A DNA stretch of 23,082 nucleotides from a virus. Shown here in pieces: positions 855 to 8,645 of the stretch. The stretch lies in the IMG/VR virus record IMGVR_UViG_3300025154_000393, positions 1 to 23,082 of that record; one strand, given 5' to 3'. Under the pieces are notes generated by a model. The model was not told the DNA's origin. It did no database searches and was given only the letters and a program-made list of their open reading frames with translations. The number at the start of each line of letters is the position of its first letter. The first letter of the stretch is position 1. The position numbers and the translations under genes were made by a program.

Positions 855-887
855 GATTCACCCCCTGCGAATGATAACCAGCCGGGT

Positions 888-932
888 CCACAACGACGCG
901 GGGAAGCGCCGCGTGTGACCCGCGTGTTAAAT
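888..932 (-). repeat. attC-like hairpin after the gene at 927-1241
   Basis: On the minus strand: ATTTAAC (932-926), then ACGCGGG (925-919), a 16-base loop region, CCCGCGT (902-896), one base, and GTTGTGG (894-888). ATTTAAC fits the R'' consensus RYYYAAC and contains the stop codon of the upstream gene. The outer AAC and GTT pair. It is shorter than typical attC sites, and the start of its unit does not carry the matching GTTAAAT, so it may be degenerate or only similar in form. Confidence 0.4.
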
Positions 933-1462: not shown

Positions 1463-1528
1463 TGGAGCCGGGTGCAGGACTCGAACCTGCGCCTTGTCGT
1501 TTCTCCCTACCAACTGGGCGAACCCGGC
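1463..1528 (-). tRNA. tRNA-like gene with a truncated anticodon arm (tRNA relic or mini-tRNA)
   Basis: Minus strand, 66 bases including an encoded CCA. The acceptor stem is perfect, GCCGGGT (1528-1522) with ACCCGGC (1473-1467), then discriminator T and CCA. The T arm is GCAGG-TTCGAGT-CCTGC and the D arm has CCC AGTTGGTA GGG. Between the D and T arms only about 13 bases remain where a normal tRNA has about 23, so no standard 5-bp anticodon stem with a 7-base loop fits and no anticodon can be assigned. It lies between two leftward genes in the same orientation. It could be a decayed tRNA, a processing signal or an old attachment site. Confidence 0.6.
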
Positions 1529-5738: not shown

Positions 5739-5855
5739 ATGAAGCTCAAACCCTATCAAATGCTTGTCGAGAACGGAAGGATATTTATTTTCATTCCCGA
5801 TAGTGTTGAGATTATTTGGATTGGGGAGAGAGGTCTTGAGGTGTGCTTGAATTAA
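5739..5855 (+). CDS. Small hypothetical protein, 38 aa
   Basis: ATG 5739 begins two bases after the ssb stop codon; no separate ribosome binding site is seen, so translation is probably coupled to ssb. The product MKLKPYQMLVENGRIFIFIP is followed by a beta-like segment and an acidic end. Its TAA lies in GAATTAAC, the first box of the hairpin at 5850-5906. Unlike the next three units, no matching GTTAATTC is found upstream, so it is not itself bounded like a cassette. Confidence 0.45.
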   Translation: MKLKPYQMLVENGRIFIFIPDSVEIIWIGERGLEVCLN

Positions 5856-5906
5856 CGCGGCGGTCACAAGCCGCCAGGCGAGTCTTTGTGGACCGCCTGG
5901 TTAAAT
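5850..5906 (+). repeat. attC-like site 1 (57 bp)
   Basis: Starts with AATTAAC (5850-5856) and ends with GTTAAAT (5900-5906), which fits the R' consensus GTTRRRY. TTAAC pairs with GTTAA; a 2-base unpaired spacer on each side follows; then GGCGGTC (5859-5865) pairs with GACCGCC (5891-5897), and ACAA with TTGT with an extra base. Alternative local hairpins (GCGGC/GCCGC and CCAGGCG/CGCCTGG) are mutually exclusive with the long stem. There is no T-run, so it is not a terminator. Length, end boxes and bulged stem fit integron attC sites. Confidence 0.65.
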
Positions 5907-5921
5907 CATGGAGGTAATTTC

Positions 5922-6218
5922 ATGAATCAAAAAGAGCACGATAAGGAAATAGGACGTTGGCAGGAATCTATTTACGAACTGATCAAAAAAATCAGTGGGG
6001 CCGATTCAGAAATTGACGGCGGGTGCTGTGATTCGGGCGATGATCTGGATGGTACTCTCGTAGAAATCGAACAGGGATTTGAATTTTTTAAGCAACGAGT
6101 GATTGAGGCCTGCGCGAAGGTTCTTGAAGATGAGCATAAGAAACTTTCCAAAAGGAGCTATCCTCCTCCGCAAATTCTTATAAAAATGGCGAAGAAGGTC
6201 AGGAACGTATCGATTTAA
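5922..6218 (+). CDS. Hypothetical protein carried in cassette-like unit 1
   Basis: 98 aa from ATG 5922, preceded by TGGAGG at good spacing. It begins MNQKEHDKEIGRWQESIYEL and is helical and acidic, with a Cys pair (GGCCDSGDD) near residue 32 and a basic C-terminal third. No family recognised. The unit that carries it starts with GTTAAATC (5900-5907) and ends with GATTTAAC (6212-6219), exact reverse complements; the stop codon is inside the end box. This one-gene layout is what an integron cassette would show. Confidence 0.6.
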   Translation: MNQKEHDKEIGRWQESIYELIKKISGADSEIDGGCCDSGDDLDGTLVEIEQGFEFFKQRVIEACAKVLEDEHKKLSKRSYPPPQILIKMAKKVRNVSI

Positions 6219-6271
6219 CGCAGTCGAGAGGGACGGCGCTTTCCCGTTCCTCTCGACGACTTGGTTGGAAC
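6212..6271 (+). repeat. attC-like site 2 (about 58 bp)
   Basis: ATTTAAC (6213-6219, fitting RYYYAAC) and GTTGGAA (6264-6270) are the outer boxes; AAC pairs with GTT. The inner stem GTCGAGAGGGACGG (6223-6236) pairs with CCGTTCCTCTCGAC (6244-6257) at 13 of 14 positions. The single-stranded spacers are unequal (3 and 6 bases), an asymmetry also seen in real attC sites. No T-run follows. Confidence 0.65.
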
Positions 6272-6296
6272 GTTTTTTATAGAAAGGAGATGGCCC

Positions 6297-6557
6297 ATGT
6301 TTACCGAACAAGAAGCGAAAGATAGGTGGTGTCCTCATGTTCGTTTTCAAGATACAGAACCAGACTCTCAACCGGCAAACTCATGGTCTATTCATTCGAG
6401 TTGTTCAGACGAAAATAAATATGGCACGGAACGCAACCCGAAAATTTGCCGGTGCATCGCTTCCGAGTGCATGATGTGGCGTTGGGAAAACGACTTGAAA
6501 TCTAAGGGCGGCGAAGGCAGCAAGGGCTTTTGCGGACTCGCGGGAAAGATCGGATAG
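6297..6557 (+). CDS. Conserved phage-type Cys/Trp-rich protein in cassette-like unit 2
   Basis: 86 aa from ATG 6297, with AAAGGAG upstream. It has the pattern EAKDRWCPHVRF near the start, CIASECMMWRW in the middle and GFCGLAGK at the end, a set of motifs I recall from uncharacterised small proteins in many phages; the conserved cysteines suggest a metal site. Function unknown. The unit begins GTTGGAAC (6264-6271) and ends GTTCCAAC (6557-6564), exact reverse complements. The gene's TAG overlaps the first base of the end box. Confidence 0.7.
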   Translation: MFTEQEAKDRWCPHVRFQDTEPDSQPANSWSIHSSCSDENKYGTERNPKICRCIASECMMWRWENDLKSKGGEGSKGFCGLAGKIG

Positions 6558-6617
6558 TTCCAACGCTTGCGTCAACCGCAAGCGAAGCGTAGACGGTTTG
6601 GACGCAATTGTTATGCG
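6557..6617 (+). repeat. attC-like site 3 (61 bp), best structured of the set
   Basis: R''-like TTCCAAC ending at 6564; a 4-base spacer (GCTT); GCGTC (6569-6573); AACCG (6574-6578); then CGGTT (6594-6598), two extrahelical bases (TG), GACGC (6601-6605), a 4-base spacer (AATT), and GTTATGC (6610-6616). So AAC/GTT, two 5-bp stems, symmetric unpaired spacers and bulged bases on one strand are all present, as in folded attC sites. Competing hairpins (CGCTTGCG/CGCAAGCG and GGACGCA/TGCGTCC) are also possible. Confidence 0.7.
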
Positions 6618-6637
6618 TCCTTCATTGGGAGAATAAA

Positions 6638-6832
6638 GTGAATAAAATTTCTTTTGTTATTTGGATGCTGTTGTTCCCTGTAACCACATCATTGGCAGAG
6701 GCGATTATAATTGTCGCACGATCAAAAGCAGGTATCACAGCACGATCATATTCTGATGGCGCATACGCTTTTGAAGCTCTCTTTGAAACCGCTATTTGGG
6801 GCTACGTTGGCTATATGCTTTTTAACGCATAA
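6638..6832 (+). CDS. Small membrane protein in cassette-like unit 3
   Basis: 64 aa from GTG 6638, with GGGAG 7 bases upstream; the longer frame would start inside the attC-like site. The N-terminus is a hydrophobic segment (residues about 4-27, signal-anchor type), and a second hydrophobic stretch ends the protein (ETAIWGYVGYMLFNA). Probably a two-pass inner-membrane protein of unknown role. The unit begins GTTATGCG (6610-6617) and ends CGCATAAC (6826-6833), exact reverse complements, with the stop codon inside the end box. Confidence 0.6.
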   Translation: MNKISFVIWMLLFPVTTSLAEAIIIVARSKAGITARSYSDGAYAFEALFETAIWGYVGYMLFNA

Positions 6833-6876
6833 CCAGCCATGAACCCGACTTTGCACAGTTTCCGGAATGCATAACT
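6826..6876 (+). repeat. attC-like end element, right copy of the 46-bp repeat
   Basis: CGCATAAC (6826-6833) closes unit 3. The 46 bases from AACCAG to ATGCATAACT (6831-6876) match the minus-strand element at 154-109 in 35 positions with no gaps. A GTT lies at 6858-6860, but no full attC hairpin forms, so this looks like a shortened or different subtype of site. GCATAAC occurs at both its ends as a direct repeat. Confidence 0.5.
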
Positions 6877-6877
6877 C

Positions 6878-7114
6878 ATGAGAAAAACGCGGGAAGAAAG
6901 AAAGTGGGAGCGCTCTCAGAAGTCCAGCCGGGCAGCAACTATAGGATGGGAGCGTATTCATGCCGCAAAAGCCGCTGCCGGTATCGTTGAAATTTACAAT
7001 GACGTTCACGCATACGGTGCCTACGAAATCACAATCAAAAGCATCCGGTCGGGCAAGGTAAACGTCCTCTACTCCACGAAGGAGAACGAAGAGATAATTT
7101 TTTTGCTGATTTGA
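6878..7114 (+). CDS. Hypothetical basic protein
   Basis: 78 aa from ATG 6878, which directly follows the 46-bp repeat; no convincing ribosome binding site. The N-terminus is strongly basic and charged (MRKTREERKWERSQKSSRAA), suggesting nucleic-acid contact, followed by a helical Ala-rich part and a beta-like part. No family recognised. If unit 4 began at GTTTCCGG (6858-6865), its expected end CCGGAAAC is seen as CCGGAAAG at 7132-7139, one base off, 18 bases after the stop. This could be a decayed cassette end or chance. Confidence 0.4.
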   Translation: MRKTREERKWERSQKSSRAATIGWERIHAAKAAAGIVEIYNDVHAYGAYEITIKSIRSGKVNVLYSTKENEEIIFLLI

Positions 7115-7124
7115 ATGGGCAGCC

Positions 7125-8645
7125 GTGGAAGCCGGAAAGGGTGTCCATATCTGCCGTAACGCGGATTATCAGAAAAAACATTGTGAAGACCAGGAGCGGA
7201 AGGATCGTTTAGCCCACTTGACAACTATGCGCCATCTATCCTACAATAGCACCTCAACCCCCGCTGTCATCCTGGCAGACGTGCCCGGCAATGGCGGCGG
7301 GGCCTCTCCTTTCCGTCAAATAAAAAAGGATGGTAGCTATCTATCTATGGCTGGCAAGGTATCAACACGCGAGCGTTGCCCTAAATGCGGCCAGAAGTTT
7401 CAGTTCATAGGCGAAGCTGATATACTCTGCACGTCCTGCCATACTAAGCCCGAAACTTTTTATATATATCTCTATTGGCCCGATGAATATTTAGGCCGCG
7501 ATCACAAAATACCTCACGATACGGACGGGAACGCTCTTGACAGTTTCAGACGTGCTCATAGGCTGCTTGAGAAGATCCGTAACGAGATAGATTCAGGTAC
7601 GTTCATTCTTAGAAACTACCTGAGAAAAGAACGTAATCAGTTCAGGGGACGCATACTATTTCCAAGGTGGCTTGCCTTCATCAAAAGCAAAAAACGGTCC
7701 CTCAATTACACTCGCAAGCTGGAACAATATGTAAAAGATTATTTTACTCCGCTGCTAGGAGAAAAAGATTGTACACAACTTAAAACAAGTGACATTAGTA
7801 AAGTTAGAAGCTTTCTTTTAGGAGAACTAATCAGAAAGCAATGCGAAGAATGCGAACTTGCAACAACTTGCGTCTACTGCAAAGAAGGATATAGAATTAA
7901 AGCAGGGAATCATAAAGGGGGCTTGCTTGCTCCGAAGGCCGTAAAGAACATTATGGATCAGGCAAAGTCTTTCTGCAAATGGCTCATGCGAGAAGAATTG
8001 ATCGTTAGAATGCCTATATTTGATTCGGTAGAAGTTCCCGAACAACTGCCTACCATCATGCCGATTGAAGACCGAAACAAGGCGCTTGCTGCAATACGCT
8101 CTCCAAGGCTAAAGGCCGCTATTACATTTTATGTTTACCACCCCGCAATGCGACCTTCCGAAGTCGCGGCCCTCGACGTAAGGCACTTTGACCTATCATA
8201 CCGCTGCGTAAAAATTGCTCACGGTCTTGACTATGACAGGTCAATCAAGACGCGTAAGAACAAAAAAGAGTACGTAATGCCCTTAAGTAAGCATTGGGAT
8301 GATTCGTGCATTCGCGGGCGCTTCGGAAATGAGATAGCTTTCCCAAACAAAGACGGAGGTCGGTACAACGCTCACACGCTCAATGAGGGCTGGCGCACGG
8401 CTTGTAAGTCTGCAGGAGTTCCTTACGTAAACATTTATAATGCAATGAAACATACTGGAATGACCGAAATGGCCCGCAATGGAGCGTCTACAAAGCAATT
8501 GCAGACTATTGCCGGTCAAAGTTCGGCCAAGTCCCAGGAGCGCTATATTGCCCTGTCTGTCGAGTCTGTACGGCACTTGGTTGATGGAAGTATCGGGGAA
8601 GTACCGGGTATCGTGCAGGTGAAAGATAAAGTAACTGAAAACTAA
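7125..8645 (+). CDS. int: Tyrosine recombinase (phage integrase) with two zinc-binding motifs
   Basis: Up to 506 aa. The GTG at 7125 lacks a ribosome binding site; ATG 7227 or 7347 may be the real start. A zinc ribbon CPKC...CTSC occupies residues 85-105, and a second CX2CX5CX2C lies at 240-252 in the core-binding domain. The catalytic domain has R343 (MRPSEV) and the nucleophile Y474 (ERYIAL), but the usual HxxR is N439-A-M-K442 and the usual GHSS histidine is Q465, so the active site departs from the consensus. It is not like integron IntI, which is shorter and lacks these cysteines. Its 3' end is 10 bases from a tRNA-Glu-like 3' end, as expected for int-attP. It probably catalyses phage integration and excision. 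Confidence 0.85.
   Translation: MEAGKGVHICRNADYQKKHCEDQERKDRLAHLTTMRHLSYNSTSTPAVILADVPGNGGGASPFRQIKKDGSYLSMAGKVSTRERCPKCGQKFQFIGEADILCTSCHTKPETFYIYLYWPDEYLGRDHKIPHDTDGNALDSFRRAHRLLEKIRNEIDSGTFILRNYLRKERNQFRGRILFPRWLAFIKSKKRSLNYTRKLEQYVKDYFTPLLGEKDCTQLKTSDISKVRSFLLGELIRKQCEECELATTCVYCKEGYRIKAGNHKGGLLAPKAVKNIMDQAKSFCKWLMREELIVRMPIFDSVEVPEQLPTIMPIEDRNKALAAIRSPRLKAAITFYVYHPAMRPSEVAALDVRHFDLSYRCVKIAHGLDYDRSIKTRKNKKEYVMPLSKHWDDSCIRGRFGNEIAFPNKDGGRYNAHTLNEGWRTACKSAGVPYVNIYNAMKHTGMTEMARNGASTKQLQTIAGQSSAKSQERYIALSVESVRHLVDGSIGEVPGIVQVKDKVTEN

Follow-up and report, generated by a model that had tools for sequence, protein, structure and literature searches.

Integrase-free cassette arrays (CALINs) have already been described in phages, including TJE1, PH101, P12002L, and others, and five of the six phage attC sites tested were used by IntI1 (Qi et al., 2023, PMC9892861). 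By its attC sites, the DNA analyzed here (IMG/VR record IMGVR_UViG_3300025154_000393; its whole stretch of 23,082 nt is called the window below) very probably belongs with these phage CALINs, and it resembles those described in the main text of that study in its attC-bounded clusters of one-gene units, its lack of an integron integrase, and its bacterial-like attC sites; unlike them, it has a pair of arrays that each lie at a copy of the same attI-like element, and its genes are reversed. Neither the two-array element nor the reversed genes are reported in the main-text sections of that paper, the supplementary tables of which may hold a similar case.

Sedentary chromosomal integrons of Gammaproteobacteria (loci L039-L058) are alike in attC boxes, arm pairing, extrahelical base, and cassette layout, and their attI junctions are similar to the element at the start of one array (E2, below); in contrast to these integrons, the window has no intI, its genes read towards the attI-like end, and its cargo partly belongs to phage families. 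Off-target insertion by IntI at a secondary G/TT site (the slash marks the crossover) likewise uses a GTT target outside a bacterial integron, but at unrelated sites, whereas two copies of a conserved 49-bp element are used here. The account favored for the window, with a probability of roughly 0.7, is that of two integrase-free cassette arrays that were entered at an attI-like element by an integron integrase. Array 1 is composed of three cassettes (c3, c2, and c1), each consisting of one small gene and one attC, and array 2, located at about 106-932 on the opposite strand and missed by the original prediction, probably comprises two (p178 and p531). The features of array 1 and its surroundings are as follows.

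5739-5855, + strand: flanking short ORF of 38 aa, read from the sequence, with a stop codon overlapping the distal crossover
5850-5906, - strand: J0, putative attC of c1 and distal end of array 1 (model R1, 23.5 bits, E 1.6e-4)
5922-6218, + strand: c1, cassette gene, 98 aa, reversed; boxes at 6212 and 5900
6213-6270, - strand: J1, putative attC of c2 (model R1, 14.2 bits, E 0.061)
6297-6557, + strand: c2, cassette gene, 86 aa, reversed; boxes at 6557 and 6264
6558-6616, - strand: J2, putative attC of c3 (model R1, 19.0 bits, E 0.0028)
6638-6832, + strand: c3, cassette gene, 64 aa, probable membrane protein, GTG start, reversed relative to its own attC
6826-6833 and 6610-6617: R boxes of c3, exactly complementary
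6831-6879, - strand: E1, 49 nt ending CTGGTT, start of array 1, attI-like by position
7224-8645, + strand: phage tyrosine recombinase next to E1, with 7125, 7224, or 7347 as possible starts

The three 8-mers and reverse complements on which the original prediction was built are exact over 8 nt and lie where it had placed them: GTTAAATC at 5900 and GATTTAAC at 6212 for c1, GTTGGAAC at 6264 and GTTCCAAC at 6557 for c2, and GTTATGCG at 6610 and CGCATAAC at 6826 for c3. Complementarity of R' and R'' at the two ends of one unit, as in integron cassettes, was therefore seen in c1, c2, and c3, and it is partial in p531. The stop codons of array 1 lie in or just before the end boxes, also as foreseen, and its junctions form imperfect hairpins on folding. 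A chain of three such units arose in 1 of 1000 dinucleotide shuffles of the whole window, which upholds the earlier claim that three in order are very unlikely by chance, at about 1/1000 for the boxes alone, with the hairpins uncounted; single box-paired units numbered 6 in the window, against a mean of 1.9 in 1000 dinucleotide shuffles.

To compare the junctions with bacterial attC sites, a covariance model (R1) was built in-house, with standard box and arm pairing and without any window sequence, from 20 attC sites of 58-70 nt from bacterial integrons aligned in array direction. Reference arrays were retrieved from the neighborhoods of integron integrases, which were found in 107 of 274 gammaproteobacterial genomes; the model recovers the expected attC series in these arrays, partly because some of them served as training. 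An unfiltered scan of the whole window gave as its top four matches 5850-5906 (- strand, 23.5 bits), 6558-6616 (- strand, 19.0 bits), 6213-6270 (- strand, 14.2 bits), and 875-929 (+ strand, 9.5 bits). The top three are exactly the junctions originally proposed, all of which thus matched an attC covariance model, the last of them more weakly. The best match in 80 kb of control phage DNA, from an unfiltered scan that allowed E up to 5, scored 12.5 bits over 35 nt, and a further 44 kb, scanned unfiltered with E up to 1, gave no attC match. Taken singly, J1 and 872-932 are weak (E 0.06 and 1.3), and Rfam returned no attC-like match. In their boxes, arm pairing, and bulge the junctions agree with bacterial attC sites, and they are very probably attC sites themselves. 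A CALIN calls for at least two serial attC sites within a few kb; three are present at 5850-6616, each with a match to the attC model (E 1.6e-4, 0.0028, and 0.061; own model R1), and no intI lies nearby within this incomplete fragment. Hairpins between genes are common in phages, and with two of the four model matches weak singly, the junctions might instead be chance repeats lying between phage genes, or signals for termination or RNA processing; this is very unlikely, given that no terminator-like site was found at the junctions and that exact box pairing across genes, the position of the bulge, and the ranking of the four junctions as the top four matches would all be unexpected.

The direction of the attC sites departs from the original prediction. 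R boxes look alike on both strands, and direction is told by the extrahelical base and the strand of the model match. All four model matches are opposite in strand to the genes. With the bulge side called by a hand-made attC score that is symmetric for both arms, 35 of the 37 reference sites callable at the margin used carried the extra base on the 5' arm as read in array direction; relative to the genes it is on the 3' arm in J0 and J2, J1 has no extra base, and in 872-932 it is placed as in J0 (read by eye). The polarity assumed earlier is therefore wrong: because the match strand is opposite to the genes, each attC in array 1 belongs to its downstream gene on the + strand and not to the upstream gene. 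From the side of the extra base and the model strand, the cassettes of array 1 follow one another as c3, c2, c1 towards lower coordinates, those of array 2 towards higher ones, and every gene is backwards in its cassette. This reversed polarity is considered likely. In the reference cassettes the longest reading frame followed the array direction in 57 of 64, against 7 of 64 in the other sense; the usual, though not obligatory, agreement of gene and attC direction is absent from the arrays of the window, and since reversed genes are a bacterial minority (7/64), five of five here needs selection or another cause.

Read in this direction, the second array has the following features.

106-154, + strand: E2, 49 nt ending CTGGTT, start of array 2, with attI-like hairpin, GGTCTAAT, and GTT
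178-492, - strand: p178, probable cassette gene, the frame of which crosses the compound repeat region
284-532, + strand: attC-like region, compound or decayed, with a perfect 17-nt inverted repeat that has AAC/GTT ends and encloses a 204-nt loop
531-854, - strand: p531, cassette gene of a phage family, with relatives in phages
872-932, + strand: putative attC of p531 and distal end of array 2, fourth model match (9.5 bits, E 1.3)
927-1241, - strand: p927, flanking gene, with a stop codon overlapping the distal crossover of array 2

Despite its weak model score, 872-932 is accepted as a putative attC because its sequence is like that of J0 (their alignment scores 42, and the best of 5000 shuffles reached 23) and because it occupies a gene junction and has correctly placed boxes. 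There is a fair case that p531 and this attC form a cassette, with R boxes that match only partly. The p178 unit is not clean: the region 284-532, which also holds two direct copies of GGCGGGCAGAGAAC, gave no attC match with model R1 and is left as a compound or decayed attC. Over 178-532, the p178 frame codes for two halves that resemble zinc ribbons, with a repeat-rich stretch between them inside the 17-nt inverted repeat, and p178 may be a gene that was fused or interrupted by cassette recombination.

By attC polarity the arrays start at 6833 (array 1) and 152 (array 2), and the sequences that precede them, E1 and E2, share 73% gapless identity (score 50, against 16.8 +/- 2.8 and a maximum of 34 in 2000 shuffles). 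Their homology stops at the CTGGTT crossover (G/TT), beyond which the arrays diverge; a break exactly at G/TT, which the original prediction proposed to look for among related phages, is seen inside the window, between E1 and E2. Given the attC polarity, both lie directly before a first cassette and end in G/TT, as an attI does, and neither adjoins an intI, E1 having a non-IntI tyrosine recombinase as its neighbor and E2 having no recombinase beside it inside the window. The stretch 6834-6880, considered as a fourth attC, had no model match and was rejected as a copy of the repeated element (E1). A matrix was made from 21 reference junctions between an integrase region and the first cassette, in many of which a hairpin is succeeded by a GTCTA-like L box and this by GTT; the same order is found in E2, with AACTTTGCAAAGTT, GGTCTAAT, ACCTG, and GTT. 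Over the 811 GTT sites of the window, with a one-base shift allowed, E2 ranked second and E1 ranked 218th, which is not significant. The attI likeness of E2 is accordingly suggestive as judged from its motifs, and E1 would be attI-like by position, its L-box score not being significant.

That element E is an attI-like docking site is put forward tentatively, at slightly under even odds. The cassettes may be real and E may nevertheless be a duplicated phage regulatory element with a secondary G/TT, at which a host IntI inserted off target: E1 has no attI L-box score, E holds a palindrome, which is a potential operator, and both copies lie between phage genes. This alternative is quite possible, if below an even chance, and against it stand the loss of homology in both copies exactly at G/TT and the hairpin, L box, and GTT of E2 in the order of reference attI sites. 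No third copy of E was seen in the window, and exact patterns of it were not found in viral contigs. Eight matches to the E core in the 274 gammaproteobacterial genomes, each with 3 mismatches, were set aside as chance, their number being about that of a reversed control pattern, and no E-like bacterial attI was found.

Under the docking-site reading, the distal crossovers, which overlap the stop codons of the flanking frames (5739-5855 and 927-1241), indicate what the empty sites would formerly have been, namely CTGG/TTAATTC for array 1 and CTGG/TTAAATC for array 2; before insertion, the ORF at 5739-5855 would have adjoined E1, and p927 would have adjoined E2. The arrays might alternatively be fossils, a now passive cassette block that ordinary or illegitimate recombination had copied out of a bacterial integron, with no integrase action in the phage, which would agree with a window without IntI and with one decayed-looking junction region (284-532). 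Two arrays at copies of one element, both starting from G/TT, argue for site-specific entry instead, and genes that are all reversed are unlike bacterial arrays, and this origin is judged improbable.

The original prediction held that no IntI is encoded in the window, and this was borne out for what is an incomplete fragment, the sole recombinase of the early region (7224-8645) scoring 16.4 bits against TIGR02249, far below the cut-off of 265. Its 5' end is towards E1, the expected position of an intI, and it could on that ground be the enzyme that recombines the cassettes, in an integron-like system encoded by the phage. That is extremely unlikely: besides its TIGR02249 score, it lacks the IntI-specific insertion, its aligned catalytic positions (7347-8642) hold N, K, and Q where integron integrases have His, Arg, and His, and no such gene adjoins array 2 inside the window. 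The neighboring recombinase was ruled out as an IntI by the same score, missing insertion, and residues. No relatives of it were found in viral contigs, and from its sequence the protein at 7347-8642 may be inactive or have a variant active site. The intI with specific insertion that marks a complete integron is absent from this incomplete fragment, and it is possible that one lies elsewhere in the phage, beyond the incomplete record.

Relatives of p531 were found in an uncultured 485-kb phage (57% identical), Gordonia phages, and lambdoid phages, one of the last bearing the name ead/Ea22-like; for c2 the relative was one in Pseudomonas phage Dolphis (38% identical), c3 had one weak match, in a Vibrio phage, and none were found for c1 and p178. 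Searches for relatives of c2, c1, and p531 in viral contigs, for a concatenation of the three cassette proteins in genome contigs, and for p531 in the 274 gammaproteobacterial genomes (the last run without a positive control) found none. The array DNA had no match in phages, and no cassette gene matched known defence families. At the thresholds used, the attC model matched nothing in the retrieved neighborhoods of the p531 and c2 relatives, so that phage accessory genes seem to be packaged here as cassettes. The nearest relatives found for the window share the upstream ATPase gene, at only about 50-55% protein identity, a distance in that one protein that is too great for a comparison of single-cassette gain or loss; in the gene lists of two of them a gene for a single-strand binding protein comes after the ATPase, as in the window, without these cassettes, and no attC match was obtained in them at the thresholds used. 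The core pattern of J0-type attC sites had one match in viral contigs, in long reading frames and without model support.

The earlier proposal that genes were captured here as cassettes is partly upheld, in that the three junctions match the attC model; its polarity is reversed, and it did not foresee the second array or the shared boundary element. Under the favored account, circular cassettes would be inserted one after another by an integron integrase that most likely came from the host, the folded attC strand recombining into G/TT of an attI-like element that sat just behind a stop codon in each of two phage operons. Cassettes with genes backwards to their attC would land in the sense of the operon, be transcribed with it, and be retained. 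A broader scheme, on the unlikely side, is that the phage has its own attI-like docking sites following stop codons in two operons, which would load, lose, and exchange reverse-facing phage-gene cassettes through a host integrase and draw on a pool shared across the population. Phage genomes are mosaic, and the turnover of their small accessory genes is mostly ascribed to illegitimate or homologous recombination. If the favored account is true, site-specific cassette capture becomes a testable route to phage mosaicism, and the reversed orientation predicts a rule of retention, by which a cassette gene must match the sense of the phage operon.

Elsewhere in the window, a long imperfect hairpin with AAC/GTT ends at 1967-2062 scored moderately in a hand-made attC scan and had no covariance model match. 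A 63-nt tRNA-like sequence at 1466-1528 (- strand), uncalled by ARAGORN, matched the Rfam tRNA model at 38 bits; its anticodon arm looks short, and it may be a degenerate tRNA of the phage or else an attachment site.
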